From an uncultured Faecalicatena sp. (GTDB taxonomy: Bacteria; Bacillota; Clostridia; Lachnospirales; Lachnospiraceae): a stretch of DNA of 41,639 nt. Positions within the stretch are counted from its first letter, which is position 1. Each line of letters begins with the position of its first letter. Both the position numbers and the translations under genes were made by a program. The notes beneath the pieces were generated by a model. That model was given only the letters and a program-made list of their open reading frames with translations. It searched no databases and was not told the DNA's origin. The stretch is from NCBI GenBank assembly GCA_948468385.1, contig CAOKHZ010000035.1:1-41639 (forward strand), in the 5' to 3' direction. Positions 1 to 13,902 of the stretch are shown in pieces.

Positions 1-3000
1 CGCGCAAGCCATCTTTCACGTCATCGCCCGCATTACCAGAACCACTGGCGTTTCCAGTACCGTCGCTGTTTCCAGAAGCCTCGTCCTTTCCAGAACCACT
101 GGCGTTTCCGTCACTTCCCGCGTCGCCGCTTCCTTCGCTCTCCTTGGCATCCTCATACGACTTCTCCAGCAGATTGTTCAGCTTGTCATAGTCATATCTG
201 ACCTTCTTTCCCGTAGGCATCGTCCACGAGGTGAGCCGCCCCATCTCGTCATAGCCGTACTGCTCCTTACGCCCGGCCGGGTCTTCCCTTGAGGTCAGAT
301 TGCCTTCCAAGTCATACGTGTACTTCGTCACCTTCCCCCGCGCGTCCTCGTAGGAGGTCACATTACCCATCACGTCGTAGCCATACTTGGTCACGTTGCC
401 CAGCGGGTCGGTGACTTTGACAAGATTGTCGTTCGCGTCATACTCGAAATGGCTCTTCACGCCCGTGAAGTCGGTCAGCGTGATGACGTTGCCGTGCGGG
501 TCATATTCGTAGCCGTTCGTGTCGCCCTTCTTGTTCGTGTAGGCGACGACACGCCCGTCCGCGTCGTACGTCCAGTTTTCCTTCTGACCCAGCGCGTCCG
601 TCCGCTGCGTCATCCAGCCGTCCTTGTCATAGAGGGCTTGTTCCACGTAGCCCATCGGGTCGGTCACGGAGGTCAGGTTGTAATTGTTGTCATAATCATA
701 GCTGGTCGTTCTTCCGCCCGGCCTTGTAAGCGTAATAATGTTACCCGCCGGGTCATAGGTAACAGATGTCACCTTACCCAACGGATCCGCCAACGCCACC
801 AGTCTTCCGGCCAAGTCATACGAGTACGTATCGGTGCGCCCCAATGGGTCGGTCACAGAGGTCAAATTGCCCGCCGCGTCATAGCCAAAACTGCTTGTCC
901 CGCCCACCGCGTTCGTCATGGACGTGATGTCGTGCACACGGTTGTAGATATAGGTCGTGACGCTCCCCAGGCTGTCTGATTCCTTGACCACGTTGTCGGC
1001 CAGGTCATAACCAAGCTTCTTCTCATAGCCCAGCGGGCTCGTCATCCTGGTAATCCTGCCCGCCTTGTCATAAGCGTAACGGTACTCGCCGCCGTTCGGC
1101 AGCGTGATTTTCGTCACGTTCCCATTCAAGTCCACGCCATACTCGGTCACGTTGCCCATCGGGTCGGTGACGGAGGTCACGTTCCCGTGCTTGTCATAGC
1201 CATAGAGGGTTTCCAGACCCTTCGGGGAAATCTCCTTCACCAGGTTGCCCGCCGCGTCGTACTCGTACTCCGTGATCAATTCCAACGAATCCTTGTATTT
1301 CGTCAGGTTGCCAAGGGCGTCATAGCGGTACTCCTGCACGCGCCCCATGGCGGAAACTTCCTTGATCAAACGGTCGATCTCGTCATACTCATACGTGTAA
1401 GTGCCGCCGTTTCCGTCCGTCACGCCCGTCAGGTTGTCATTTCCATCATATGTATACGAAGAGACCACGCCGTTCTCGTCCGTGTACTTGATCAGATTTC
1501 CATTGCCGTCGTACACGTAACCCAACGTGCCACCCAACGGGTTCGTCTGCGAGACGAGCCGGTTAATCTGGTCATAGGCATACTGCCAGACCGCCCCGTC
1601 CGCCTCGGACATGGAAACGAGGTTGCCCGCCTTGTCATAAGCAAATGTCGTGCGGCGGCCTTCCGCGTCGGTCACCGCCGCCAGGCGATCCATCACGTCA
1701 TATTCATACGACGTGACGCTCCCGTCGGCCTCCGTCACCTGCAACAGACGGCCATATTTGTCATACGCATAGGACGTGACACGCCCCAGGCTGTCGGTCT
1801 GGCTCGTCACATTGCCCGCCGCGTCATACATCCACGCGGTCGAATGTCCCTCGCTGTCCTTCGCGCTCAAAGTCCGCCCCAGGCCGTCATAAGTATATTC
1901 CACGGACAAGCCCTGCACGTCAGTCACCTTGGTAAGCCGTCCCTCGCCGTCATATTCCATGGACAAAACGTCCCCGGTCGGGTACGTCGTCTTCACGTGG
2001 TTGCCGGTCTTGTCATAGGCGTAAGCATACTTCCGTCCCAACGCGTCCGTCATTTCCAACACGTTTCCGCGCGAATCATAGGCATAATGCGTCTCGCCCT
2101 TCAAGGCGTCGACGGTCTTTTCCAGATTTCCCAGCACGTCGTACTGCAAGGCCGTCAGGTTGCCGTTTCCGTCGGTCAGGGAATTGATCTCGTTCGTGGC
2201 ATTGTACGTGTAGCGGCTCGTGTTGCCGTTCCCGTCCACGCTCTCGACCAGGTTTCCGTTCGCGTCATACTTCATCGTCTGGGTCGAGCCGTCGGCGTAA
2301 GCCACCCTGGTAACGCGCCCCGCGCCGTCATATTCGTAAGCGGCCGTGCGTCCTTCCTCGTCCGTCACCAAGACCTGCCGGTTGGCTGCGTCATATGCAC
2401 TCGACACCACGCCGCCCTCCGGGTTCGTCACGGATACGAGGTTCCCGTTATTGTCATAAGCGTAACTCCAAACGCGCCCGCCCTCGTCCGTCTCGGACAG
2501 AACCTGCCCTTTCGCGTCATACTGATAGTACGAAGTCGCGCCCAATACGTCCGTTTTCGCCGTCATGTTTCCCAACGCGTCGTAAATCGCACGCTCAACG
2601 CCGCCGTCCGCATAACGCGTCTCGGTCACATTTCCTAGAGCATCATAAGATTTTTCCAACACGTTGCCGGTGCTGTCGGTGTAGCGCACCTGCCGCCCCA
2701 GCACGTCGTACTCGGAAGTGGCGGTATTTCCCGCGCCGTCCGTCATGGCGGTCAGGTTGCCCGCCGCGTCATAGGTGAACGTGACCGTCCCGGCCTCCTC
2801 ACTGCTTTGGCTTATGACACGCCCCATCGAATCGTAAGCGGTCGTGACCACGTTCCCCAAGGCGTCGGTCTGCTTCGTCTGGTTCCCGTTCTTGTCATAA
2901 GAAAACGTCGTCGTGCCGCCATCCGGCAATGTCTGGCTCGTCATGCGGTAGCCCGCGTCATACGTGTAGGTCGTCGTCTGGCCGTTCGGCTCGGTGACGG

Positions 3001-6000
3001 ACGTGATGTTGCCTACCGCGTCGCGGCCATACTTCGTCGTCCCGCCATCTGCCGCCGTTTCCGACACCTTGTTGCCTTCCATGTCATAGGCAATGGCCGT
3101 CGCAAAGCCCAGCGGGTCGGTCATGCTCGTCGGCAGACCCATCCCGTTGTATCCAAAGCCCCACGCATTCCCATTTCCATCCGTGTACGAGACGAGGTTC
3201 GCCCCGTCGTAGGCGTAAATCGTGCGGATTCCATTTCCATCGGTCATGGCAATGACGCGGTGCGCGCCGTCGTACTCATAGCCCGTCGTGTTGCCGTTCG
3301 CGTCCGTGCTTTGCACGAGGTCGCCCGCCTCGTTATATTGCATCGTGGTCACGCCGCCATTGTAATTGGTGACGGAAGTGACCTGGTTTTTCCCGTTATA
3401 CGTGTAATGCGCCGCCGCCCCGTCCTCGCGGGTCATCGTGACGACGTTGCCCGCGCCGTCATAGGCGTAGGTTCTCGTGCCGCCCGCCGTCGTCTCGGAT
3501 TCCAATTGGTTCTGCCCGTTATAGGCGCACGTCTTCGTCGTTCCATCGGGGTACTCGACGAGGGTCGTGCGGTACATTTCGTCATAATGGTAGACGGTGA
3601 CGTTTCCCTCGTTGTCGGTCGTGGTCGTCTGACCCTCCCCGTAGGCAAACGTGGCCGTGTTCCCATTGGCATCCGTCTGTGCCGTGACACGCCCCTCCCC
3701 GTCGTAGGTGTTCGTGACCACGGTGTTGCCGTTCTCGTCCTCCCACGCGGTCATCAGCCCATTTTCATCATAATGATACGTGCGCCTGCCGCCATTGGCG
3801 TTCGTGTAGGCAACGAGCCGGTGGTTTTCATCGTATTCATAGGCCAGCTTTCCGCCGTCGGGGCGGGTCACGCCCGTCACGAACCCCCTCGCGTCCTGCT
3901 CAAATGCGAACGCCTTGCCCGAGGGAAGCGTAATCTTCGTCAGCCCATAATTTTCATCGTAATCGAACGTCGTCTGAAAGCCCAGGCGGTCGGTCACAAA
4001 GCGCAGCACGCCGTATTTGTCAAACGACCACACGTTTTTCTCGCCGTCCGTCAACTCCCATCCGATATGATCCTTGTCCGTTCCTTCATAATGCACCGGG
4101 TGCAGTTCGAGCGCGTGGCCGGCCGGCGCACGATAGCTTCCGTCCTCATTTCTGGCAAAGTACAAATACCCGCCGTCGCCCTGCGTGTAGAAAATGCCGC
4201 CGTCCTCCATCTGCGTAAGGCCCCGCTCGTATTCGAAGCTCCACCCACGGCCGAACATGCTTACCTGGTTCGCGCCCTTGGAGTTGTAGCTACGCGTGAG
4301 GGCGAACTCGCCGCCCAGGTCGGCCAGTGCCGCGTCCTCTTGTTCCATGTAGAAGTTGCCGGTGTTTAAGTTGACCGGCTCAAAACCGAATTCGCAATGC
4401 AGGCCGCGCCCCATCAGCGCGCCGTCGATTTTCATCTTGTCGATGTCGGTCAGCTCGCCCGGGCTATACGGGACATTCGTCTGCGGGTTGCGGATGAAGA
4501 GCGTGTTGCCCGCGATGACCAGCGCGTCCTGCACCTGGTTGTCCCTCATGATGTCAACAAGCGGCACGCCATAATAACGGGCAATCTTCGGCAGCGTGTC
4601 GAACTGCTTCACTTCGTAAATGAGGAAGCTGTCGCTCGCCACTTCTTTCCCCGTCTCGATTTCGCCGTCCGCGTTCTCCTTCGAAGCCCGCGCCTTGATG
4701 GTATAGAGCTTGTCCTTCTCAAGCCCCGCGTAAAGCGTTCCCTGCCAGTTGCTGTCCTTCCCGTAATATTTGTTCGCCTGCGGGAAAATGAGGTTGTAGG
4801 CGGTGCTGTCCGGATACGCGTACAAGCCCTCGGCCTTCGTCTGGCGGTGCGCCTCTGCCGCCTCCTCGTCCGGAACCAGGTAATATTCCACCGTCGCCCC
4901 GCTCTTTGCCAAGCCGTCCGCGAAAATGCCGTCAAACGTCAGTTTCCCGCCGACCGCCTTTTCCGTCATCGGCCGCAACGTGATCGTCGTGTCGTCGAGC
5001 GACAAGTCCCGTAAGAATGGGTCTTCTGCCGGGGACCACTCCACGGTCAGGGTCGGCCCGTACACGGAATTGCGGTTGTTCAATACCTCGCACTGCATGG
5101 CCGCGTCCAGACCGGAGGCCTCGTCGACGGCCTTTAACACCATGCCGTTGTTGGCGTACGTCCCCTGCACCCAGTCGTTGACCAGCTCCTTCACGTTGTA
5201 CTGGATGTACTGGTTCGCCCTGGGGCTGGCGTTTTGCACGTCGATGAACGTGTGATTGGCCGGCTGCGTCATCCACGTCACGCCCCCGTCCCACGCATCG
5301 TCCACCCGGTATAGGCCGAACTGGGACGCGCCGTTGCTGAAATTCGTCCGCTGGCTGACGGAGAACGTCGCACTGTCAATCTTCACGTCGGCGGGTATGG
5401 ACTCCAGCCCGCCGGTGATTTTGATGTAGGTGCGGCAAATCCGGTGTATCGAGCCGAACTCGATGTTGCCGGACACGATGCCGTCGTCGTAGCCGACATA
5501 CGGATAGTTGTTGTCGCCAATGTTGACGTTGGGGCTGCCCTGCTCCACGCCAATCATGCTGAACGACTCGCGGCCCACGTTGACCGTGCTCGGGTCGATG
5601 CGCACTGGGTACTGGCGTGCCGTATCGGACAGCCATTCCTTGTCCGGCGTGACCGTGAGGAAGATCCTTCCGTCCCCCTCTTCGACCAGCCCCATCTCGA
5701 TGTGGATGCTCACCTCGCCCGCCGCGTCCTCCATCGAGGGGGCCTCGAGGATGAACCTTGCCTCTTCACGAGCCTCGCCCGCGTCCTTATCCTCCGGGTA
5801 AATGTAAATCTGGTTGTCTATCAACTCGGCCTTCAAGCCGGGAATCTTCAATTCATATCGAAATGCATCCTGCTCCATCGGTTTTCGCAGAATGATGTCT
5901 TCCTTGATATTCTCATTTAAAACCGTGTACTGCACGTCGATGCCATCATACACCTGATTGTAACGGATGGCGTTGTCCTTGACCACAGAGTGGGAAAAGT

Positions 6001-6958
6001 CGCCGCCCTGCGGCACGACTTCCATCATGTCGTCGCCGCGCACGAGCACCATCCCGGCCTCCGGGGTGATGTTCTTCGGGAGCACGACCAGGTAGTCGTT
6101 CCGCTTGTTGTGCACGAAGCCCGCGTCGTTCTGGCCGCCGTTAGTGCCGTCCTCTTCGTCCGTTTCGCCCGAAGCCGCCGCGCTGGCCGCGTAGGCCGTT
6201 GTCTCCGTCTCCACCAGCGTGTTGTCGGCCAATTGGAACTCGCCCTCGTCGTCCTGGTACGTTCCCACGTAGCCACCGATGACGGTCGTGTACCGCCCGT
6301 CCCCGGTGCGGTATGTGCGGGAACCGCCGTCGAAGCTGACCAGCTCGCCCTCCGGCTCCTCCGATATCGGATAAAAGTCCTCGGGTTCCCTGCGCTCGGC
6401 CTCTGGGTCGGAGGGGATTTTGCCTTCTTCGGAATCGGCGTCGGCCGTATCGGCATCCGCGTCGGAACCATCCTCAAAGCCGGTATCGGCATCCCTATCC
6501 GTCGCGTCGCCATCGGTCTCGTTGACCTCCTTATCCGTCGCATCGGCATCCTTATCTGTCTCGTCAGCATCCATGTCAGAGCCAGACACGTCAACAACCG
6601 CATTGTCGGCATCCGTGTCAGGGCCAGACACGTCAACATCCGCATTGTCGGCATCCGTGTCAGAGCCAGATGCATTGGCATCGTTGGTATTCGCGTCCGT
6701 ATTCGTCTTATCGGAACCCGCGCCATCAGGATGATCCGCGTCGGACGCTTCTGGTAACGCGCCGTCCGTCACGCCCGCCTCTTCCAGTGACTGCAAGGCC
6801 TCCGGCCTTGAAAAGTCCACCGTCCGCGGGGTGTTCTCCACCACGTCCTTCGCCTCAACGAAAAGCGGGCCCGTCCCCTGCAATGCCAGAATCGCCGCCA
6901 GCAGGAGGGCGACGGAAGTCTTAAGGTATCGTTTTCTGATTTTCCTCTTTCGTAACAT
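1..6958 (-). CDS. Giant secreted RHS/YD-repeat protein (5' 2319 codons; 3' end outside window)
   Basis: The minus-strand frame is open from an ATG at 6958 to the left edge, with AGGAGG 8 nt upstream. Residues 1-36 form a Lys/Arg-rich, hydrophobic signal peptide. Residues ~45-180 are an Asp/Ala/Thr-rich stalk with 14-residue repeats. Residues ~490-650 look like a DNRLRE domain. Residues ~779-826 match LysM (YEVKQFDTLPKIARYYGVP), a peptidoglycan-binding fold. Residues ~855-930 match DUF6531 (PVNLNTGNFYMEQEDAALADL, then GRGWSFEYE). From ~940 on, there are dozens of YD repeats such as GNLTSVTDPLGRTDTYSYD. The last ~50 residues in view are a Gly/Ser/Asp-rich linker. RHS proteins of this form encapsulate or display a C-terminal toxin or act as wall-bound surface proteins; the C-terminus is not visible, so toxin activity is inference. 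The promoter region carries a 10-bp array of 0A-like boxes. Confidence 0.93.
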   Translation of the reverse strand, partial: MLRKRKIRKRYLKTSVALLLAAILALQGTGPLFVEAKDVVENTPRTVDFSRPEALQSLEEAGVTDGALPEASDADHPDGAGSDKTNTDANTNDANASGSDTDADNADVDVSGPDTDADNAVVDVSGSDMDADETDKDADATDKEVNETDGDATDRDADTGFEDGSDADADTADADSEEGKIPSDPEAERREPEDFYPISEEPEGELVSFDGGSRTYRTGDGRYTTVIGGYVGTYQDDEGEFQLADNTLVETETTAYAASAAASGETDEEDGTNGGQNDAGFVHNKRNDYLVVLPKNITPEAGMVLVRGDDMMEVVPQGGDFSHSVVKDNAIRYNQVYDGIDVQYTVLNENIKEDIILRKPMEQDAFRYELKIPGLKAELIDNQIYIYPEDKDAGEAREEARFILEAPSMEDAAGEVSIHIEMGLVEEGDGRIFLTVTPDKEWLSDTARQYPVRIDPSTVNVGRESFSMIGVEQGSPNVNIGDNNYPYVGYDDGIVSGNIEFGSIHRICRTYIKITGGLESIPADVKIDSATFSVSQRTNFSNGASQFGLYRVDDAWDGGVTWMTQPANHTFIDVQNASPRANQYIQYNVKELVNDWVQGTYANNGMVLKAVDEASGLDAAMQCEVLNNRNSVYGPTLTVEWSPAEDPFLRDLSLDDTTITLRPMTEKAVGGKLTFDGIFADGLAKSGATVEYYLVPDEEAAEAHRQTKAEGLYAYPDSTAYNLIFPQANKYYGKDSNWQGTLYAGLEKDKLYTIKARASKENADGEIETGKEVASDSFLIYEVKQFDTLPKIARYYGVPLVDIMRDNQVQDALVIAGNTLFIRNPQTNVPYSPGELTDIDKMKIDGALMGRGLHCEFGFEPVNLNTGNFYMEQEDAALADLGGEFALTRSYNSKGANQVSMFGRGWSFEYERGLTQMEDGGIFYTQGDGGYLYFARNEDGSYRAPAGHALELHPVHYEGTDKDHIGWELTDGEKNVWSFDKYGVLRFVTDRLGFQTTFDYDENYGLTKITLPSGKAFAFEQDARGFVTGVTRPDGGKLAYEYDENHRLVAYTNANGGRRTYHYDENGLMTAWEDENGNTVVTNTYDGEGRVTAQTDANGNTATFAYGEGQTTTTDNEGNVTVYHYDEMYRTTLVEYPDGTTKTCAYNGQNQLESETTAGGTRTYAYDGAGNVVTMTREDGAAAHYTYNGKNQVTSVTNYNGGVTTMQYNEAGDLVQSTDANGNTTGYEYDGAHRVIAMTDGNGIRTIYAYDGANLVSYTDGNGNAWGFGYNGMGLPTSMTDPLGFATAIAYDMEGNKVSETAADGGTTKYGRDAVGNITSVTEPNGQTTTYTYDAGYRMTSQTLPDGGTTTFSYDKNGNQTKQTDALGNVVTTAYDSMGRVISQSSEEAGTVTFTYDAAGNLTAMTDGAGNTATSEYDVLGRQVRYTDSTGNVLEKSYDALGNVTETRYADGGVERAIYDALGNMTAKTDVLGATSYYQYDAKGQVLSETDEGGRVWSYAYDNNGNLVSVTNPEGGVVSSAYDAANRQVLVTDEEGRTAAYEYDGAGRVTRVAYADGSTQTMKYDANGNLVESVDGNGNTSRYTYNATNEINSLTDGNGNLTALQYDVLGNLEKTVDALKGETHYAYDSRGNVLEMTDALGRKYAYAYDKTGNHVKTTYPTGDVLSMEYDGEGRLTKVTDVQGLSVEYTYDGLGRTLSAKDSEGHSTAWMYDAAGNVTSQTDSLGRVTSYAYDKYGRLLQVTEADGSVTSYEYDVMDRLAAVTDAEGRRTTFAYDKAGNLVSMSEADGAVWQYAYDQINRLVSQTNPLGGTLGYVYDGNGNLIKYTDENGVVSSYTYDGNDNLTGVTDGNGGTYTYEYDEIDRLIKEVSAMGRVQEYRYDALGNLTKYKDSLELITEYEYDAAGNLVKEISPKGLETLYGYDKHGNVTSVTDPMGNVTEYGVDLNGNVTKITLPNGGEYRYAYDKAGRITRMTSPLGYEKKLGYDLADNVVKESDSLGSVTTYIYNRVHDITSMTNAVGGTSSFGYDAAGNLTSVTDPLGRTDTYSYDLAGRLVALADPLGKVTSVTYDPAGNIITLTRPGGRTTSYDYDNNYNLTSVTDPMGYVEQALYDKDGWMTQRTDALGQKENWTYDADGRVVAYTNKKGDTNGYEYDPHGNVITLTDFTGVKSHFEYDANDNLVKVTDPLGNVTKYGYDVMGNVTSYEDARGKVTKYTYDLEGNLTSREDPAGRKEQYGYDEMGRLTSWTMPTGKKVRYDYDKLNNLLEKSYEDAKESEGSGDAGSDGNASGSGKDEASGNSDGTGNASGSGNAGDDVKDGLR
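6565..6678 (-). repeat. 42-bp tandem repeat in the RHS stalk
   Basis: About 2.7 copies of a 42-bp unit encode 14-residue blocks of the type SGPDTDADNADVDV. The second and third units begin at 6607 and 6649. The flanking stalk is made of shorter degenerate DADATDK-type units, so length variation by slippage is likely. Confidence 0.8.
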
Positions 6959-7023
6959 AGGGCATTCCTCCTCGTATCCTTTGTAAATGTAATAGCAAAT
7001 GGAAAGATATTCCACTTACTCCT

Positions 7024-7191
7024 ACATATCATTGTAACGAACTATGCGAGAAAAATCATTTAATATAAATCGAATCTTTTCGAACTCCCACCATCCCCCA
7101 TATTTCCCTTATTTTCAAGCTTTTCTCAAATTTTTTCGAACTTTTTCGAACTTTTTCGAACTCTTTCGAACCTTCTCGAACTTTCTCAACC
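7024..7191 (-). promoter_or_regulatory. RHS promoter region with 10-bp-periodic GTTCGAA (0A-like) box array
   Basis: On the plus strand, TCGAA recurs at exactly 10-bp steps ending at 7140, 7150, 7160, 7170 and 7180, with degenerate TCAA units on each side (7111-7130 and 7181-7190). A further pair sits at 7070-7085, also 10 bp apart. In the transcribed direction the unit is GTTCGAAAAA. A candidate -10 (TACAAT) lies at 7036-7031 with no good -35, so the 7070-7085 pair falls at about -46 to -61, a usual activator position. The core TCGAA matches the end of the Spo0A 0A box (TGTCGAA), and tandem 0A boxes are known to be 10 bp apart. A Spo0A-like regulator is encoded 1.5 kb upstream. Binding is inferred. 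Confidence 0.7.
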
Positions 7192-7193
7192 CC

Positions 7194-8495
7194 TCAGCAA
7201 ATCACCCGCCTTCCCTGGCCGTCAAATATCAGCCGTACGACTTTGGTAAACATTTGCCCTTTCGGAAAATGTTGTTCAAGCATGTAACTAATCTTATACT
7301 TATCCAAAACCTCAAACACATCTGCCATTCCATGCCCCGTTCCATCCGTCGTCACGCCTCGTTGCCCCAGACGTTTCAACACATGTCTCGGAAAAGCCGC
7401 CCCGTTATCATACACGGAAATCTCATACTCTCCATCCTGATTGTTTCCCATACAAATTAAGACTTGTCCCTCGTCTCCTTTTTTCAAAACCACTTTCTCC
7501 GCATTACGGTAAATATCTCCAAACATTCGCAAAAGCAATCCGATTTCTATTTTTTGTCCTTTCAAGAGCGGGCTTATCGGAGCTTGCACAATAATGTCCA
7601 CCTCAATTTCCTTGTGCGCCGCCTCCAACAAATATCTCTCTAACATGTCGTCCAGCAAAGGGCTTCCCGTGGATACAAACGCCTTTGCGGCAAGCGCTTC
7701 CGCCCTTGTTAGCTTTTCATCCGTGTGACAAAGTTCCTGCAACTCCGCCATGGTTTTATTCAATTCTTCTGAATCCCCCGACAAATCCTTCATCTTTTCC
7801 AGAACTCTTTCCACCGTGGGAAACACCTCTTTCTCACGGTGATGATACCTGATTAATTCCTTCCTGCTTTCATCCTCTACTTTTTTGTTCAACGCCCACA
7901 ATACACAGACACCTAACGCAAATAAGAACGAAGCAGTCAGAAACCAATACACGTTACTGTTTTCGTCTCCGCTTCCGACAAATGCCAACACCACACCTTT
8001 CGCAAACAGTAAACAGAAACTCATGCCAGCAACTGCAATCGAAGAATTATTTTTCCTAAAATCAAACCATTTTCCTCTTTGTATTAACGGGAAAACGCCC
8101 AAAAGTATGATATATGTTAAAATTGCCATCACATGTGCAACAAATTGATAATTTTCCCCGGGAGAACATCCTTGCAATACATATGCCATCATTCCCGTAA
8201 AAACACCTATCACATCAATAGCCACGCAAATCATTGTTAAATACATAAAATTCCGTCCTATATTCTTTTTACAATAAAGAATCGTATAAAAATATAATAC
8301 TACCATTTCAATCAGATAGCGAACACTTATATTCGAAAATGGTAAAACACTTATTGCAATACACACCCCCACCGTAGTTATGGTTAAAATTTGATACTTC
8401 CATTCTCTTTTCACACGACATTCTTCTGACAATGTCCAAAAAACAATTAACATTGCCAAAATCCTCATCCATCCTATAATTAATTGCATTATCAT
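7194..8495 (-). CDS. AgrC-like membrane sensor histidine kinase (GHKL ATPase)
   Basis: The N-terminal half has about seven hydrophobic segments (starting MIMQLIIGWMRILAMLIVFW), and the C-terminal ~200 residues are a GHKL kinase domain. The N box is DIYRNAEKVV, the G1 box DNGAAFP and the G2 box GTGHGMADVFEVL. The layout (multi-spanning sensor, short linker helix with YHHREKEV, GHKL domain) is that of AgrC/ComD-type peptide pheromone kinases; no canonical HD(Y/F) phospho-acceptor motif is obvious, so the phosphorylated His is uncertain. The frame is open further upstream to 8639, but that stretch is non-hydrophobic and contains a perfect terminator hairpin, so I start at 8495, behind AAGGGAAGAG. 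It lies downstream of the response regulator and a 14-codon ORF and is the likely sensor of the circuit. Confidence 0.88.
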   Translation of the reverse strand: MIMQLIIGWMRILAMLIVFWTLSEECRVKREWKYQILTITTVGVCIAISVLPFSNISVRYLIEMVVLYFYTILYCKKNIGRNFMYLTMICVAIDVIGVFTGMMAYVLQGCSPGENYQFVAHVMAILTYIILLGVFPLIQRGKWFDFRKNNSSIAVAGMSFCLLFAKGVVLAFVGSGDENSNVYWFLTASFLFALGVCVLWALNKKVEDESRKELIRYHHREKEVFPTVERVLEKMKDLSGDSEELNKTMAELQELCHTDEKLTRAEALAAKAFVSTGSPLLDDMLERYLLEAAHKEIEVDIIVQAPISPLLKGQKIEIGLLLRMFGDIYRNAEKVVLKKGDEGQVLICMGNNQDGEYEISVYDNGAAFPRHVLKRLGQRGVTTDGTGHGMADVFEVLDKYKISYMLEQHFPKGQMFTKVVRLIFDGQGRRVIC

Positions 8496-8513
8496 TTGTT
8501 TCTCTTCCCTTCT

Positions 8514-8555
8514 AAAAAAGGAATGGACGGCACTTCCCGCATCGCCCATTCCTTT
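8514..8555 (-). terminator. Rho-independent terminator between the 14-codon ORF and the kinase gene
   Basis: A perfect 10-bp stem (AAAGGAATGG / CCATTCCTTT, loop 8527-8545) is followed on the minus strand by six T residues (8519-8514). It starts 5 bases after the stop of the small ORF. Read-through would couple kinase expression to the upstream genes, so it could act as an attenuator. Confidence 0.75.
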
Positions 8556-8560
8556 ATCTT

Positions 8561-8605
8561 TTACAGATGTCCTAAGAAATACTTCATCCATTCCCAAAAG
8601 CTCAT
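8561..8605 (-). CDS. Putative 14-residue peptide (MSFWEWMKYFLGHL), possible signal or leader peptide
   Basis: ATG at 8605, stop TAA at 8563-8561. The ribosome site AAGGGAGGGAAGAAG is close to ideal, with about 7 nt between GGGAGG and the ATG, better than that of either flanking regulatory gene. The product is short, aromatic and amphipathic (two Trp, two Phe, one Tyr), with no leader and no Cys for lactone formation. It lies between a Spo0A-like regulator and an AgrC-like kinase and is bracketed by two hairpins. It could be a leaderless peptide pheromone or modulin-like peptide, or a leader peptide controlling read-through at the terminator just downstream. No AgrB-type processing protease is visible. 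It is too short for standard gene finders, and translation is unproven. Confidence 0.5.
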   Translation of the reverse strand: MSFWEWMKYFLGHL

Positions 8606-8662
8606 CTTCTTCCCTCCCTTGCATGTTTTCACATAACATACTATTTGGAGAGAGAAAAGTCC

Positions 8663-8688
8663 GTCGAATCCGGTCAGAGGAATTCGAC
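8663..8688 (-). promoter_or_regulatory. Inverted pair of GTCGAA boxes / 9-bp hairpin after the response regulator
   Basis: On the minus strand, GTCGAATTC and GGATTCGAC form a 9-bp stem (one G-T pair, loop of 8) followed by GGACTTTTCTC. It can be read as a weak terminator of the response-regulator gene or as two 0A-like boxes in inverted orientation in front of the 14-codon ORF. The two readings are not exclusive. Confidence 0.5.
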
Positions 8689-8705
8689 TTATTCTTACAA
8701 GCCCG

Positions 8706-9506
8706 TTACCTTATCCATTTTTTTGCCATATTTCTAAGAAATTCCGCATTTGTCGGCCTGCCGCTCTCACGGCTCCACTCATACGGATACAATTTTCGCA
8801 ATTTCTTTTCATACCCACATAACCACACCTTTTCGATACTCTTTCGAATGTTTATCTCCACGTTCCTGCCATTCGTCTTACAGACATATGCCACATAAGG
8901 GTACACATCCTTCGTGATACTAACATCCTTTTTCTCCGACAGCACAATGTAAAGAAGAGCCTCCACACATTGCTCCGTACCGCATCCACTGCCTGAAAAC
9001 CCCATTTCTTCCAACGTCACCCGAATATCTTCCCTATAGACTTTCCCCTGCGTTTGCAAATTTACCTTATCCGCATATACATTCATGCCTTCTCTCGGTT
9101 TCCACCGCGTAGCTACCATCTCGACAAAAGTCAAAGGTTTATCCAATGTAAAATTTTTTCCTCCCTTAATGCAAACGCAGTTTGCTCCCCGATTATAAAG
9201 CGATTTTGAAAGGTCTTTCCACGTAACCTTGGTAACCACCACGACAAACGGCCTTCCCCCCTGCAATTCATTCAAACCATCCAGAAAACTGATTCCAAAA
9301 TCTCCGCCCAATTCCAGGTCAAGTATGACCGCGTCCACCCTCGTGCCTTGTAAAATCCGAAGTGCCTCCCGCGTATCATCCGTCTCCCCCGCCAGGCATA
9401 ATCCCGGATGTCTCTCCTTCATCAGCCTTTTATACTCTTCGCGGACTTCCACCTCGTCCTCCACAATCAGAACTCTCTTCGCATCCAAAACCGTACCTCT
9501 TCTCAT
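8706..9506 (-). CDS. Spo0A-like response regulator (receiver + Spo0A_C DNA-binding domain)
   Basis: The receiver domain begins AKRVLIVEDEVEVREEY (acidic pocket), with the phospho-acceptor Asp in VDAVILDLELGG and a Lys-bearing C-terminal part (VVVVTKVTW). The C-terminal ~110 residues match the Spo0A DNA-binding domain, ending GRPTNAEFLRNMAKKW, the counterpart of the conserved GKPTNSEF block of Spo0A. From the ATG at 9506, preceded by GGCGG at 8 nt, the protein is 266 residues, almost exactly Spo0A's usual length. The frame continues up to an ATG at 9599 but without a good ribosome site. It is unlikely to be the sporulation master regulator itself, because it sits in an accessory operon with an AgrC-like kinase, which is not typical of spo0A loci. 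It is the probable binder of the nearby GTCGAA arrays. Confidence 0.88.
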   Translation of the reverse strand: MRRGTVLDAKRVLIVEDEVEVREEYKRLMKERHPGLCLAGETDDTREALRILQGTRVDAVILDLELGGDFGISFLDGLNELQGGRPFVVVVTKVTWKDLSKSLYNRGANCVCIKGGKNFTLDKPLTFVEMVATRWKPREGMNVYADKVNLQTQGKVYREDIRVTLEEMGFSGSGCGTEQCVEALLYIVLSEKKDVSITKDVYPYVAYVCKTNGRNVEINIRKSIEKVWLCGYEKKLRKLYPYEWSRESGRPTNAEFLRNMAKKWIR

Positions 9507-9619
9507 GTATATTACCGCCGTTTTTAGGGAACTCACAAAACCTTCACGCCCATGGATGGGAGTAAAACGGTCAGGCAAACCGTCCTGCTCCGTTTTCATA
9601 GGCTTTCCGTCCCACTATT

Positions 9620-9654
9620 TATAGGAAACGCATAAATTTAATGCGTTTCCTATA
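9620..9654 (-). promoter_or_regulatory. 14-bp perfect inverted repeat at the response-regulator transcription start
   Basis: TATAGGAAACGCAT and its exact complement are separated by 7 bases. It starts just downstream of the -10 at 9662-9657, so it would form a very stable hairpin at the mRNA 5' end, or serve as an operator covering the start site. It is different in sequence from the GTCGAA boxes. Confidence 0.7.
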
Positions 9655-9656
9655 AT

Positions 9657-9685
9657 ATTGTACCAAGGTGGCGAAGAGATTTCAA
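9657..9685 (-). promoter_or_regulatory. Sigma-A-type promoter of the response-regulator gene
   Basis: On the minus strand TTGAAA (9685-9680), exactly 17 bases, then TACAAT (9662-9657). The last GTCGA unit of the upstream array touches the -35 element. Confidence 0.78.
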
Positions 9686-9720
9686 TCGACTTTTTTCGAC
9701 CTTTTTCGACCTTTTTCAAT
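9683..9720 (-). promoter_or_regulatory. Tandem 0A-like boxes (GTCGAA, 10-bp period) upstream of the response regulator
   Basis: TCGAC occurs on the plus strand at 9686-9690, 9696-9700 and 9706-9710, with a degenerate TCAAT at 9716-9720. In the transcribed direction this is (G/A)GTCGAAAAA repeated every 10 bp. Six of seven positions match the 0A box TGTCGAA, and the 3-bp gap between boxes equals that of known tandem 0A sites. The array abuts and overlaps the -35, the arrangement of a class II-type activator or autoregulation. Confidence 0.72.
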
Positions 9721-9777: not shown

Positions 9778-12426
9778 TCAATTTTTCTCAAACGTCAGAG
9801 CCACGTCAACATCGGCTGATTTCTTACTTCGATAAAGCATCTGCGGCAATAAGATGGAAATCGTCCCGAAAAGCAGGAACATGCCAAGCCACGCCTCGAT
9901 CGGATAGTGAAACATAAAATAATACAGCTTCCCCTCCATATAATCCTTCAACAGAAACAACAGCCCATTTCCCACCGTGAGAATTAAAATGGTGCTTACC
10001 CCAAAATAAATCAGACTTTCCAAAGCCAGCATCCCTCGTATTTGTTTCTTCGTCACCCCGATATTTCCCAGCAACTCGAACTCCCGCCGCCTCGACGTGG
10101 CGTTTCCCATCGACATGCTCGTATAGTTCACGATTCCGGCAAACACCAGGAACAGACTGACGACAAACATCAGTATGCGGCTGCCGATAATGTAAGTTTC
10201 ATTTTCCGCAATCGCGTCCGAATTGCAGGTAATGGAAAACAATTCGAGCATGGAGGGCTGTCCCGTCTCCAGAAACGCGATGTTGGCCTGGTTCATCCAA
10301 TTTTTCAACACCTCCTTGGCCGTCGGCTCCTGCCCCTCCTCCACGTTGAAGCGAATTGCAAAATTCTGCACGGTCATATGCTCCCCCAGCATGTCAAACG
10401 TTTCCTCGCCCACCGCCAGCCAAATCGTCGCATCATCCGGCCACGCCAGACTCAGACGCGGGAATGCCTCGTCTTCCACGTTCAGGTACCCGCAATTGAC
10501 CAACGTGGCTCTTTCTTCCGGGCTTGTCGGCACGCCCACGACCAACTCGCTGACACTGAACTCGCTTCCGATTTTTTTCCCGACCTTTTCCTCCTCGCCA
10601 TTTAACATATTTTTATGCAAAATAAACGCACCGTTTCCCATTCGCATGACTTCCTGCAAATCTTCCTTCCCCATGGACTTTTCCGCATATTTAAGCAGTT
10701 GTCCCATGTCCTCCCCGTCAAACACTTGTATGATAATCCACGCGTCCCTATAACCATTCAGAACCTCCATATTAGCCAGACCCTCATCGCTCAACGCGGG
10801 AATGTAGCCCCTGATTTTTTCCACCTTGTCCGTCACCTTTACCTGTGCAAGCAAATCCTCCACGTCTTGGTCAGAAAAAAATTTCCTTCCCCCTGCGCCC
10901 TGGTCGGAAAAAACCCCACTTCCCTCCATCCCCCATGGCATCGTAATCACACGCATCGCCGCGCTCTGCCTGATTCCAATCACGAAATCTGGATTGGCCT
11001 CTAGTTCATTCATCTTGTCAATCCCGCTCGAAATCACGCTGGCACAAAGGATAATCTCCCACCCCAAGACGAGTGAACACACAATGCTAATGAATTTTTT
11101 CTTCGAACGCAACACATTCATCCACGCCAGTTCTGACAACACATTCCTTCTACTCTTTTTCTCGACCAGCTTGTGAAGATTGACCTTTTTCGCCGCCTTG
11201 CCATCGGTAAAGTCGACCGCCTCCCGGAACGAAAGCTTTTGCATCTTTTGCAACGCGACCCCCGTGGCCACGGCCATCGCAACCCCCGTCAAAGCAACGG
11301 ATATAAGCAGCCACCTGAAATCAAAGGCGGAGACCACTATCACTTCCCCACCGGCTTTCGTAAGCCCGCCAAGGTACAATTTGCCAATGATTCGCGGAAA
11401 CAAGCCGCACACGATAATATTTCCCACCGCCACGCCGAAGCCCGTCCCCCCCAACCAGACGCCCCACGCCTGCCTTTTGTAAATCCGTCCCACTTCCTTG
11501 TCCGTCACGCCAAATGACTTCCACAGAACGAACTCCCGGACATCCGACTCCAACGAAACCAGTTTCAAATTATAAAGTATGAAAAACAAAAACAGAAAGA
11601 GGAACACGCAAAAAACGACCGCCATGCCGTAGCTTCCCATGGAGGCGCGCATCGCCCGGTATCCCGCCGAATCATTGGCAACGATATACTGATCGTCGTT
11701 CAGACGAATCTTGGAAGTAAGCTGCTGGCTAACCTGCGACCCGTTCAAATAATCCTGATCCGTCTCCAACAAAATCCTACAAGGAAAAAGCGTCATTCCC
11801 GCCTTGCTTAAACGTTCTTTTGCAAGGAAGGCCCTCGAAAGCCCGCCCACGCCGTTTGGGTACTCCTCAAAATAGCCCGACAGCACGAATTCCTGTCCAC
11901 CCTCCAGTTTTCCGATTGTAAAATCGTCCCAATAAAATTCCAACGAAATCGTCATCCCTATCTTTGGCTCGTTAACGCCAAGCCGTTCCAACACCTTGGT
12001 GGACAACATGATTTCCTCGCATTTTTGCGGGTAGGCTCCTTCCATATGGAACAACGCGGGCAAAATCATCGTCTGAAACGTCTCCGCCTCGTAAATGACG
12101 CAATCACAAAACGGGGTTCCCTCCGTAAAGAGCTTCCCCGCCCGCTTCTCATACCCGACATGGCTTGCGAAAGAAAGATCCTCGATTTCGTCGCTTATGT
12201 CTTCCGTCCCGTTCTCCACGTAGGCATCCGCCGTCGTTCCTGCGGTACAGACAAAACTTTTCACGTCCGCATTTAATTTTCCTTGAACCAGGCTGAACAC
12301 ACAGAACGAACTGAGGGTAACCATCGCCACCGTGCACAATAAAATCAAATTGAAGACCTTGTTTTTCCGCCAGTACGCCCTCACCAGCAAACGCGTCGCC
12401 GAAAGGTGCTTCCCCGTCCCCTTCAT
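9778..12426 (-). CDS. ABC transporter permease, FtsX/MacB type (882 aa)
   Basis: The N-terminus is a cytoplasmic basic stretch then a membrane helix (VFNLILLCTVAMVTLSSFCV). A large extracytoplasmic region of ~200 residues follows, then a three-helix FtsX block (~275-400; FCVFLFLFLFFILYNL, TGFGVAVGNIIVCGLF, LLISVALTGVAMAV). After this come a second helix (~450), a second large extracellular domain (~480-720) and a final FtsX block near the C-terminus (LMFVVSLFLVFAGIVNYTSM). It overlaps the ATPase gene by 4 bases (ATGA), so the two are translationally coupled. Such systems export peptides or lipoproteins or confer resistance to antimicrobial peptides. The substrate is unknown. It sits directly upstream of the response-regulator operon on the same strand. 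Confidence 0.87.
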   Translation of the reverse strand: MKGTGKHLSATRLLVRAYWRKNKVFNLILLCTVAMVTLSSFCVFSLVQGKLNADVKSFVCTAGTTADAYVENGTEDISDEIEDLSFASHVGYEKRAGKLFTEGTPFCDCVIYEAETFQTMILPALFHMEGAYPQKCEEIMLSTKVLERLGVNEPKIGMTISLEFYWDDFTIGKLEGGQEFVLSGYFEEYPNGVGGLSRAFLAKERLSKAGMTLFPCRILLETDQDYLNGSQVSQQLTSKIRLNDDQYIVANDSAGYRAMRASMGSYGMAVVFCVFLFLFLFFILYNLKLVSLESDVREFVLWKSFGVTDKEVGRIYKRQAWGVWLGGTGFGVAVGNIIVCGLFPRIIGKLYLGGLTKAGGEVIVVSAFDFRWLLISVALTGVAMAVATGVALQKMQKLSFREAVDFTDGKAAKKVNLHKLVEKKSRRNVLSELAWMNVLRSKKKFISIVCSLVLGWEIILCASVISSGIDKMNELEANPDFVIGIRQSAAMRVITMPWGMEGSGVFSDQGAGGRKFFSDQDVEDLLAQVKVTDKVEKIRGYIPALSDEGLANMEVLNGYRDAWIIIQVFDGEDMGQLLKYAEKSMGKEDLQEVMRMGNGAFILHKNMLNGEEEKVGKKIGSEFSVSELVVGVPTSPEERATLVNCGYLNVEDEAFPRLSLAWPDDATIWLAVGEETFDMLGEHMTVQNFAIRFNVEEGQEPTAKEVLKNWMNQANIAFLETGQPSMLELFSITCNSDAIAENETYIIGSRILMFVVSLFLVFAGIVNYTSMSMGNATSRRREFELLGNIGVTKKQIRGMLALESLIYFGVSTILILTVGNGLLFLLKDYMEGKLYYFMFHYPIEAWLGMFLLFGTISILLPQMLYRSKKSADVDVALTFEKN

Positions 12427-13175
12427 GACAACGCCCTCCCTGGCGCGGAAAGTTTCCCCGCCTCCTTCATGACAACGTCCTCCCCGTTATCTATTACGGA
12501 AAATGCCTCCCTATCGGAAATGCTTAGCTTCCCGTCCTTCATGTGGAAAATCCGATCGGCAACCCGCGCGATACGCTCGTCATGCGTCACAAGAAGGATG
12601 GTCTGATGATAACGCTCGCCCAGAGACTTCATCAGCCGAATGACATCCTCGCCATTCTTTGAATCCAGGTTTCCCGTCGGCTCGTCGGCCAGAATGACTG
12701 AGGGACGCGTATACAACGCCCTCGCGATTGCCACCCGCTGCTGCTCGCCGCCCGACAGAATGCCAGGCATCAAAAACAACTTCTCCCTGATGCCCAGCTC
12801 GTCCACGATTTCCAAGACTTCCTCTTCTCTGACATCGCGGTTCACCAACCTGGACGGCAGAATAATATTGTCAAACACGCTCAGTTCGGGAATCAAGTTG
12901 AACTTCTGAAAAATGATTCCGACATGCTCCCGGCGAAACCGCGTGCGCTCTTCCTCCGACAAGGTCTGCAACTCCACCCCGTCTACGTCGATATAGCCCC
13001 GATCCGCCTTCTCCAAACCGCTGATGACATTGAGCAGCGTCGTCTTTCCGCTGCCCGACGCGCCGAGAATGACAATGAACTCGCCCCGTTCCACCTCGAA
13101 CGAAACCTCGTCCAAGGCCGCCAGCGTGTTATCCCCGTTTGCATATAACTTCCTCAAACCATGTGCCTTTATCAT
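12423..13175 (-). CDS. ABC transporter ATP-binding protein, LolD/MacB family
   Basis: Complete ABC ATPase: Walker A GASGSGKTT, Q-loop in GIIFQKFNLIPELSVFDN, signature LSGGEQQRVAIARAL, Walker B VILADEPTGNLDSKNG, H-loop LVTHDERIA. The Q-loop and signature are those of the MacB/LolD/FtsE group, which partners FtsX-type permeases. The frame extends further up, but the ATG at 13175 has AGGGAGG at the right distance and matches family length (250 residues). It begins 19 bases after the GntR gene, so the three genes probably form one operon. Confidence 0.93.
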   Translation of the reverse strand: MIKAHGLRKLYANGDNTLAALDEVSFEVERGEFIVILGASGSGKTTLLNVISGLEKADRGYIDVDGVELQTLSEEERTRFRREHVGIIFQKFNLIPELSVFDNIILPSRLVNRDVREEEVLEIVDELGIREKLFLMPGILSGGEQQRVAIARALYTRPSVILADEPTGNLDSKNGEDVIRLMKSLGERYHQTILLVTHDERIARVADRIFHMKDGKLSISDREAFSVIDNGEDVVMKEAGKLSAPGRALS

Positions 13176-13194
13176 CGATAACCTCCCTAAAAAT

Positions 13195-13902
13195 TCAATC
13201 ATAATAAATCTTCCGGCTTCCCCGGATGCTTTCATTTATCGACTTTTCAATCCACGCAATGGCCCCTTCCGTGTCCCGGTCACGAATGTACGTCCACAAC
13301 GTGTAATTATTATCATAAAGCGCGGAAATGCCATACAACGTACAAAAATGTTCCCAAAGGGTAAAGACCGGCGTTCGAAACGACTGGAAAATCAGAGGAA
13401 TCAAGGCGTTTTTGGAAATCAGCGCGAAATCATGTTGAAAATCAAACGCCGCCTGCGAAGCCTCGCTGATACCGCCCGCCTTGCGGATACGTTCCACGTC
13501 GCCGCGCAGCACTTCGACCTCCTCGTCGGTTATGTCGGGAATGCACAGTCTGGCCGCCAGCGTGTCAAGCGCGATACGCACCTCAAGTATCGATTTCACC
13601 TCGTCATTGCGCAAACGCCCGCCATTAAACTTCATAATCGAAATCAGCGTGTCAATCGTCCCGTTCTTGCGATAATCCTCCACGTAGGTGCCGCTTCTCG
13701 GTTTTACGACAAGGAAACCTTTCTTTTCCAAATCTGCAAGGCCGTTATTCACCACGGATCTGCTGACCTGCATCGACTCTGCCAACTGCCGTTCCGTCGG
13801 CAGCTTCTCCCCAATTTTCAATTTCCCCGACAAAATCAAGTCTTCCAACTGCTGAACGAACAGTTCCCGCAAAGTCGGAGAACTAATCTTCTTGAATTCC
13901 AT
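13195..13902 (-). CDS. GntR-family transcriptional regulator (FadR/FCD subfamily)
   Basis: The N-terminal winged helix-turn-helix has the GntR hallmark KIGEKLPTERQLAESMQVSRSVVNNGLADLEKKGFLVVKPRSGTYV (quoted in two parts: KIGEKLPTERQLAESMQVSR and the wing GFLVVKPRSGTYV). The C-terminal all-helical FCD-type effector domain includes ILEVRIALDTLAARL and the FDFQHDF motif. The ATG at 13902 follows AAGGGAG at 6 nt; the frame upstream to 14019 lacks a ribosome site. Two copies of a TGGTTGTACCA dyad lie in the divergent intergenic region, the right type of site for this subfamily. It therefore probably controls both its own operon with the ABC transporter and the Fe-S oxidoreductase operon facing away. 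The ligand is unknown. Confidence 0.9.
   Translation of the reverse strand: MEFKKISSPTLRELFVQQLEDLILSGKLKIGEKLPTERQLAESMQVSRSVVNNGLADLEKKGFLVVKPRSGTYVEDYRKNGTIDTLISIMKFNGGRLRNDEVKSILEVRIALDTLAARLCIPDITDEEVEVLRGDVERIRKAGGISEASQAAFDFQHDFALISKNALIPLIFQSFRTPVFTLWEHFCTLYGISALYDNNYTLWTYIRDRDTEGAIAWIEKSINESIRGSRKIYYD

Follow-up and report, generated by a model that had tools for sequence, protein, structure and literature searches.

The window analysed here, a 41,639-nucleotide stretch of DNA, is contig C35 of the 4.25-Mb genome of an uncultured Faecalicatena sp. (G000, 62 contigs). Its minus strand carries, in this order, a tandem array of TCGA-core boxes (array 1), a response regulator gene, a 14-codon gene, a sensor kinase gene, a second array (array 2) and an RHS/YD-repeat gene. 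We regard it as fairly probable that micropeptide, multi-span kinase and Spo0A_C regulator form a three-gene peptide-sensing two-component unit, which would be autoregulated via the boxes and would drive the RHS gene. The three genes, their recurrence as a unit, the marks of selection at the peptide level and the arrays with their conserved place can be read from the DNA itself. The general finding is the regulator-micropeptide-kinase cassette, and the array story holds for the lineage of the window. An initial annotation of this DNA had proposed a peptide- or signal-responsive circuit in which a dedicated Spo0A-type regulator and an AgrC-like kinase act on the RHS gene. As a whole this interpretation is partly supported; the peptide gene, a paralogous locus and the wider family had been missed. 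The accessible parts of a mostly open-access literature, preprints aside, held no description of such a trio, which may be in print elsewhere.

The regulator-micropeptide-kinase cassette

The regulator lies in an open reading frame (ORF) at 8706–9599 (minus strand), which matches Response_reg (E 7.8e-12) and, at its end, Spo0A_C (E 3.5e-19) in Pfam; relatives suggest a start at the ATG at 9506, giving 266 residues (8706–9506). No LytTR match was found in Pfam. Its matching solved DNA-binding domains are those of Spo0A (1fc3, 1lq1; E about 1e-6). For the Spo0A equivalog model TIGR02875 it scores 70.8 bits, below the cut-off of 200, and Spo0A itself is encoded separately on contig C1, with 27% identity to this regulator. 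Both the Spo0A-type domain and a dedicated regulator distinct from Spo0A proper, as first proposed, are thereby borne out. A paralogous regulator/kinase locus is found on contig C5 of the same genome (L029), with regulator identities of 54% and 46% over two stretches, and an orthologous locus exists in a congener (L042, genome G006), where the regulator is 89% identical.

The kinase ORF spans 7194–8639 (minus strand), with a probable start at the ATG at 8495 (433 residues, 7194–8495). Its HATPase_c match (E 3.4e-5) falls just under Pfam's cut-off, and six aligned kinases conserve H219, N331 in the N-box GDIYRNA and the G-box GTGHG (GTGQG in L044). With its seven hydrophobic stretches the window kinase has been fairly called AgrC-like as regards architecture, which is not proof of family: it matches no AgrC-type model, HATPase_c_5 included, in Pfam and further models. 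Nine distant kinases all match HATPase_c, and seven of them also HATPase_c_5, weakly (E up to 0.1, best 2.3e-6). A kinase profile run against solved structures gave no match with E < 0.1. The window kinase is 78% identical to that of L042 and 42% identical to the C5 paralogue.

The 210-bp gap between these two genes holds the 14-codon gene (8561–8605, minus strand; ATG AGC TTT TGG ..., MSFWEWMKYFLGHL), preceded by the Shine-Dalgarno sequence GGGAGG and conserved in alignment A7. The five other close loci encode one peptide each: MSFWEWLKYFLGNI (L042), MTFIEWLKYLFKRG (C5 paralogue), MTFWEWLRYLLRRG (L045), MSFWEWILGILQRGS (L043) and MSWEGFWQWFLYAIKR (L044). Genes as short as these are usually dropped by gene finders, which may have let a class of signalling systems in gut Clostridia escape notice.

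How often would such a gene be called by chance? Our rule, which was drawn up once the gaps of 15 loci and their peptides had been inspected by eye, asks for an ATG and 10–25 codons within the gap on either strand, with at least five contiguous bases of AAAGGAGGTGA placed 3–12 bases upstream. It called 19 of 21 gaps, where 200 shuffles gave a mean of 2.16 and a maximum of 7, and 4 of 55 other intergenic gaps of 140–360 bp from the same loci (Fisher p 4e-12); one of these four is the kinase-linked candidate MSLLDWFVRFWF, situated before the kinases of L049. Extended to 27 homologous gaps, the rule called 26 (200 shuffles: mean 2.83, maximum 9), and the calls contain 14.5% Trp with a mean hydrophobic moment of 0.665, against 1.6% and 0.366 in the shuffle calls. 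Twelve gaps that were fetched after the rule had been set, their ends untouched, yielded nine calls (500 shuffles: mean 1.22, maximum 5), the misses being L093, L097 and L144.

Some choices define these sets. Kinase starts were moved or the gap was cut for L074, L075, L076 and L081 among the 21 gaps, and 30 bases of the regulator end were added for L093 and L097 among the 27 after their peptides had been seen by eye; the single miss of the 27 is L144, whose peptide gene was read by eye. Outside the 27 stand L072, whose piece carries no regulator; L077/L095 and L146, which are truncated at contig ends; L148, with neither regulator nor peptide gene; L048, whose regulator is truncated in the same way; L046 and L047, where the piece lacks a kinase of this kind; and L049. 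Two starts or ORFs were called in L079, L080, L081, L092, L093 and L094, and one was taken; the longer start of L092 would give 21 residues.

The 28 peptides collected in this way, the L049 candidate included, are 12–19 residues long and contain 14.8% Trp (27 of the 28 have at least one), with net charges from -2 to +2; Cys occurs in three, and their length leaves no room for a leader. Their mean hydrophobic moment is 0.657, compared with 0.414 (sd 0.026) after shuffling of residues within each peptide, a value that none of 2000 shuffles reached, and it peaks at 100 degrees, the angle of a helix. Because the moment lies so far above the shuffles and has its maximum at this angle, the sequences point to a real peptide under selection on its helical form. 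Of 15 distant family loci, 14 (all but L098) have the micropeptide gene on the strand opposite to the kinase, which rules out that it acts as a leader peptide attenuating the kinase.

The trio recurs well beyond the genus. At E 1e-20 the close regulator is rare, found in 4 of 12 genus and 4 of 397 family genomes, our own counted in both, and at E 1e-40 its profile matches only our own among 392 genomes of the order. A kinase profile reached further, with 13 of 397 family genomes; besides G012 and our own, 11 loci were fetched, and in nine of them a Spo0A-like regulator (profile A1) directly precedes the kinase, the other two being L072 and the truncated L077. A second profile matched 16 of 397 family genomes and added six loci to the previous nine and G335; all six have the regulator adjacent, after the kinase in L094 and only partly open in L097. 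Across the class 9 of 361 genomes matched, again with our own, and among seven untruncated new loci the regulator is present in five and the micropeptide gene in six (five by the rule, L144 by eye). As the searches scored few candidates per genome, these shares are lower bounds. Pfam confirmed Spo0A_C on all three relatives scanned (L073, L079, L049).

A scan with the kinase found four close named loci, all in Lachnospiraceae records, three of them MGBC assemblies from a mouse-gut collection, MGBC000092 and MGBC000003 included; a fifth, weak match is an Ignavibacterium metagenome-assembled genome. Mobile carriage was considered and rejected: the window kinase has no match in plasmids or phages, nor has the distant-kinase profile a relative in viral contigs.

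Three side observations concern family members. In L043 two kinases flank a single regulator: the first kinase is followed by the regulator, the peptide gene and then a second kinase that is truncated at the contig end. No peptide gene was seen before the first kinase. The peptide of L143, a locus from another family of the class, is close to that of the window. In G161, regulators matching profile A1 lie on fetched pieces with no such kinase (L046, L047) and may represent another branch of this domain apart from Spo0A.

Tandem TCGA boxes and promoter-like elements

Array 1 (9683–9720, minus strand; direct repeats of 10 bp, GGTCGAAAAA) precedes the regulator and consists of three perfect TCGA boxes and one degenerate box (TTGA) in 10-bp steps. 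Array 2, between the kinase and the RHS gene, comprises seven in-phase boxes at 7121–7190 (minus strand; GTTCGAAAAA), five perfect and two with one mismatch, and is joined by two further boxes at 7070–7084 (TTCGAAAAGATTCGA), upstream of the promoter-like elements of the RHS gene. Both arrays had been described at the outset as the only ones of their kind in the window, and this agrees with a TRF scan of the whole window (score at least 30), in which no further TCGA array appeared.

On the scale of the genome, too, the arrays are concentrated at such loci, a point that the initial annotation had put up for checking. TCGA-N6-TCGA-N6-TCGA occurs at six sites of the genome, four in the window arrays and two at the C5 locus, so that triple arrays are confined to its two regulator/kinase loci; the reversed control gave none here and one over all 12 genus genomes (in G001). 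Elsewhere in the genus there are seven sites in G006, five at the orthologous locus and two at one further site, and one in G003, with none in the remaining nine genomes. The pattern KTCGAAAAARKTCGAAAAARKTCGA, allowing three mismatches, has nine matches in our genome, every one on C35 or C5 (control 0), and 13 in G006 (four on C28, two on C15, three on C1, three on C16 and one on C18). Single pairs are found beyond these loci as well: TTCGA-N5-TTCGA, counted on both strands, has 22 matches (reversed control: six), and 12 of these belong to the window arrays or the C5 locus. The TCGA array observation is right and goes beyond chance.

L042 has both arrays at the same places: array 1 in the same position, a counterpart of array 2 at 8590–8645 and the two further boxes at 8687, followed by an RHS orthologue with 81% identity over the aligned part. 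In L045 five boxes, with three mismatches, survive as a remnant 3' of the kinase, and the sequence beyond them differs from that of L042.

Promoter-like elements accompany the boxes with spacing that is exact between relatives. TTGAAA-N17-TACAAT (9657–9685, minus strand) abuts array 1, and the same elements precede the regulator in L042. Before the RHS gene stands TTAAAT-N21-TACAAT (7031–7063, minus strand), with TTGAAT-N21-TACAAT as its L042 counterpart, and TTGAAT-N21-TATAAT follows the C5 array. The micropeptide gene is preceded by TTCGAC-N22-TATGTT (8635–8668, minus strand), which as TT(C/T)GAC-N22-TATGTT keeps its spacing in all five loci compared (L044 left out). At Spo0A-activated promoters (spoIIG, and work on spoIIE) boxes sit at -35 elements, and long spacers occur, for example in spoIIG.

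A degenerate third box set (TCGA, CTGA, TCGA in 10-bp steps; 8659–8688, minus strand), seen by eye, overlaps this last promoter-like element and rests on conserved columns of A7. As a third array it was rejected by a strict scan (at most one mismatch per box), which gave no trio in the window, L043 or L044. The same scan found the expected trio in L042 (shuffle share 0.001) and favoured in-phase boxes one or two steps upstream in L029 and L045 (shares 0.011 and 0.009). Directly before the micropeptide's Shine-Dalgarno sequence a short inverted repeat, ATGTT...AACAT (8623–8639), is kept in five aligned loci and could be an RNA hairpin or an operator.

Other 10-bp arrays were met along the way. 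L093 carries, from 1378, a long one with a different box, GTGGATTTTT, which separates the kinase from a micropeptide gene of opposite orientation, and L082 repeats TTGGTTTTRA about five times. A general TTTTTGT box, present in 10 of 15 distant gaps (shuffle mean 2.4, maximum 6), was picked after looking and is therefore not relied on. About ten boxes in 10-bp steps lie at L111 5954–6055 (G006:C1), flanked by the genes of a MATE transporter and of a 57-aa protein with no Pfam family. This 57-aa family has six copies in 3 of the 12 genus genomes (G000, G006, G011), all three with the close regulator; it was rejected as a further target, since only one of the five copies scanned (L111) has an array, L154 standing outside the scan.

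The proposed circuit and its alternatives

In the circuit that we propose, the micropeptide would be made without a leader and would sit at the membrane as a predicted Trp-rich amphipathic helix, serving as ligand or modulator of the kinase. The kinase would phosphorylate the Spo0A_C regulator, which in the window lineage may bind the tandem TCGA boxes, placed in 10-bp steps beside -35-like elements. It would then raise its own operon together with peptide and kinase, a positive loop, and also the RHS surface-protein gene. Phosphotransfer, box binding, activation and the action of the peptide on this kinase are the steps that we infer. Autoregulation through the boxes and control of the RHS gene are probable, the latter as putative control judged from position and the conserved promoter-like spacing. 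A peptide signal, part of the original proposal, is plausible because the cassette itself contains a peptide gene. Different peptides, and kinases that are 42% identical, could keep the genome's two paralogous systems apart.

One of the closest known parallels is agr (AgrBDCA), which likewise joins a multi-span kinase, weakly GHKL-like in the distant members here, with a small peptide gene; peptide and kinase genes are divergent in the 14 distant family loci noted above. Unlike agr, the window regulator has Spo0A_C and not LytTR as output, its 210-bp gap to the kinase holds no AgrB gene (no search for AgrB was made beyond this gap), and the peptide has no leader and rarely Cys, while AgrD has a leader and a Cys/Ser ring.

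Several observations weigh against the proposed circuit or narrow it. The loci are related, so that counts of gaps and loci are not independent events. In the class loci the peptide gene lies on the kinase strand in 5 of 6. L143/L149 (G761:C8) has a kinase and the peptide gene MSFWEWILYILR, but over about 6 kb no Spo0A-like regulator; at L148 both regulator and peptide gene are missing, and at L145 stops interrupt the kinase. Among the neighbouring ORFs, to which the inspection was confined, no gene for processing or export (protease, exporter) was seen conserved beside the trio. One candidate for a dedicated exporter, the ABC transporter at 9778–13235, was rejected, having no match in 24 of the 27 loci searched, the orthologous L042 included; ATPase matches came only from L151, L115 and L112. 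The recognition helix reads NVEINIRKSIE in the window, RVERAIRHAIE in the genome's own Spo0A and SVERAMQNAIN in the distant member L073, and such differences from Spo0A leave the box assignment unproved. As for the arrays, L043 has no TCGA pair at all and L044 one isolated pair among the six close loci, and the lag-10 signal stays at z < 2 in 13 of 15 distant gaps. An array at every locus was accordingly rejected, the signal of the distant gaps resting on L082 and L093, the two in which it is strong. Array conservation, which the initial annotation had raised, thus stands for both arrays in the congener and fails at these other loci; for this reason we read the arrays as lineage-specific and no defining part of the family, whose core appears to be the trio.

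What else could the peptide be? The alternative that survives best, a tenable though less probable one, makes it a micropeptide on the inner face of the membrane that tunes the kinase as feedback, as MgrB does PhoQ, with no outside signal. A missing leader, Cys in only three of the 28 peptides, a strong amphipathic helix and the lack of a conserved exporter in view all fit. As with MgrB and other small proteins that modulate kinases, the product is small, predicted to associate with the membrane and coupled to a single sensor kinase. MgrB itself, a membrane protein of 47 aa, can reach across the membrane, however, and the peptides here, of about 14 residues, are too short to do so; their gene also lies between the two genes with which it would act. 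The inhibition of PhoQ by MgrB is described in the accessible part of PMC8404706.

The arrays, too, admit of another reading, which we hold to be unlikely: phased A-tracts that bend DNA near promoters in place of regulator boxes. AAAAA recurs every 10 bp in both arrays, and in L082 and L093 phased tracts of T accompany boxes of other sequence. TCGA, however, is kept where the A-tract is broken (GTTCGAGAAGG), and the loci at which triple arrays cluster encode a Spo0A-type regulator, Spo0A itself having TGTCGAA as its known box, with base contacts described in the accessible part of PMC3485338. Compared with this core, array 1 reads GGTCGAA/AGTCGAA and array 2 GTTCGAA; C4 and G5 are kept, and G2 is lost in array 2.

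Still less probable is that the peptide is no ligand and acts as a small membrane-active toxin or antimicrobial effector under two-component control. Trp-rich amphipathic helices are often membrane-active, and phenol-soluble modulins are, like the peptides here, short and leaderless. The helical likeness is supported by the accessible part of PMC5052566, in which these modulins are small amphipathic alpha-helical peptides. Unlike these modulins, the peptides collected here, at 12–19 aa, are Trp-rich and tied by their gene to a regulator/kinase pair, with no conserved exporter seen among the neighbouring ORFs inspected. Their net charge of -2 to +2 is unlike that of cationic killers, and the neighbourhoods that were fetched showed no obvious immunity gene, though none was searched for.

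That the regulator is one more sporulation input sharing Spo0A boxes, with the arrays as targets of the true Spo0A, is improbable: the genome does hold a Spo0A, which binds TGTCGAA, but its triple arrays are restricted to the two paralogous loci and array 2 has T at G2, a base contacted by Spo0A (PMC3485338, as far as accessible).

The proposed circuit shares with Spo0A the receiver and Spo0A_C domains, TCGA-core boxes and their place beside -35 elements. It differs in its score below the equivalog cut-off, its low identity to the genome's own Spo0A, its recognition helix and the pairing of the regulator with a kinase gene, since verified sporulation kinases are orphans according to the available part of PMC6136694. 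The same part of that paper uses Spo0A_C as unique to Spo0A. Here the domain serves as output in a family of kinase-paired systems distinct from Spo0A, so that surveys by this domain would count these systems as Spo0A. Tentatively, and with a little less than even confidence, we extend this to a widespread, unannotated class of peptide signalling across Clostridia in which leaderless, exporter-free, Trp-rich helical ligands of 12–19 residues would address dedicated multi-span kinases feeding Spo0A_C regulators, the Spo0A output domain having been recruited outside sporulation, for communication. A cassette of three small parts lends itself to rebuilding with a reporter in a laboratory strain.

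The RHS gene and the gene behind the C5 array

The putative target, an RHS/YD-repeat protein gene at 2–7015 (minus strand), is cut by the contig end and has its probable start at the ATG at 6958. Its secreted-looking product contains 39 RHS_repeat stretches, DUF6531 and LysM (Pfam). TRF found a 42-bp tandem repeat of 2.6 copies at 6563–6670, in the Asp-rich N-terminal part of the gene. At the paralogous locus the C5 array precedes a different gene, L029 11034–12245, which matches DUF87/HerA and is apparently without its start.

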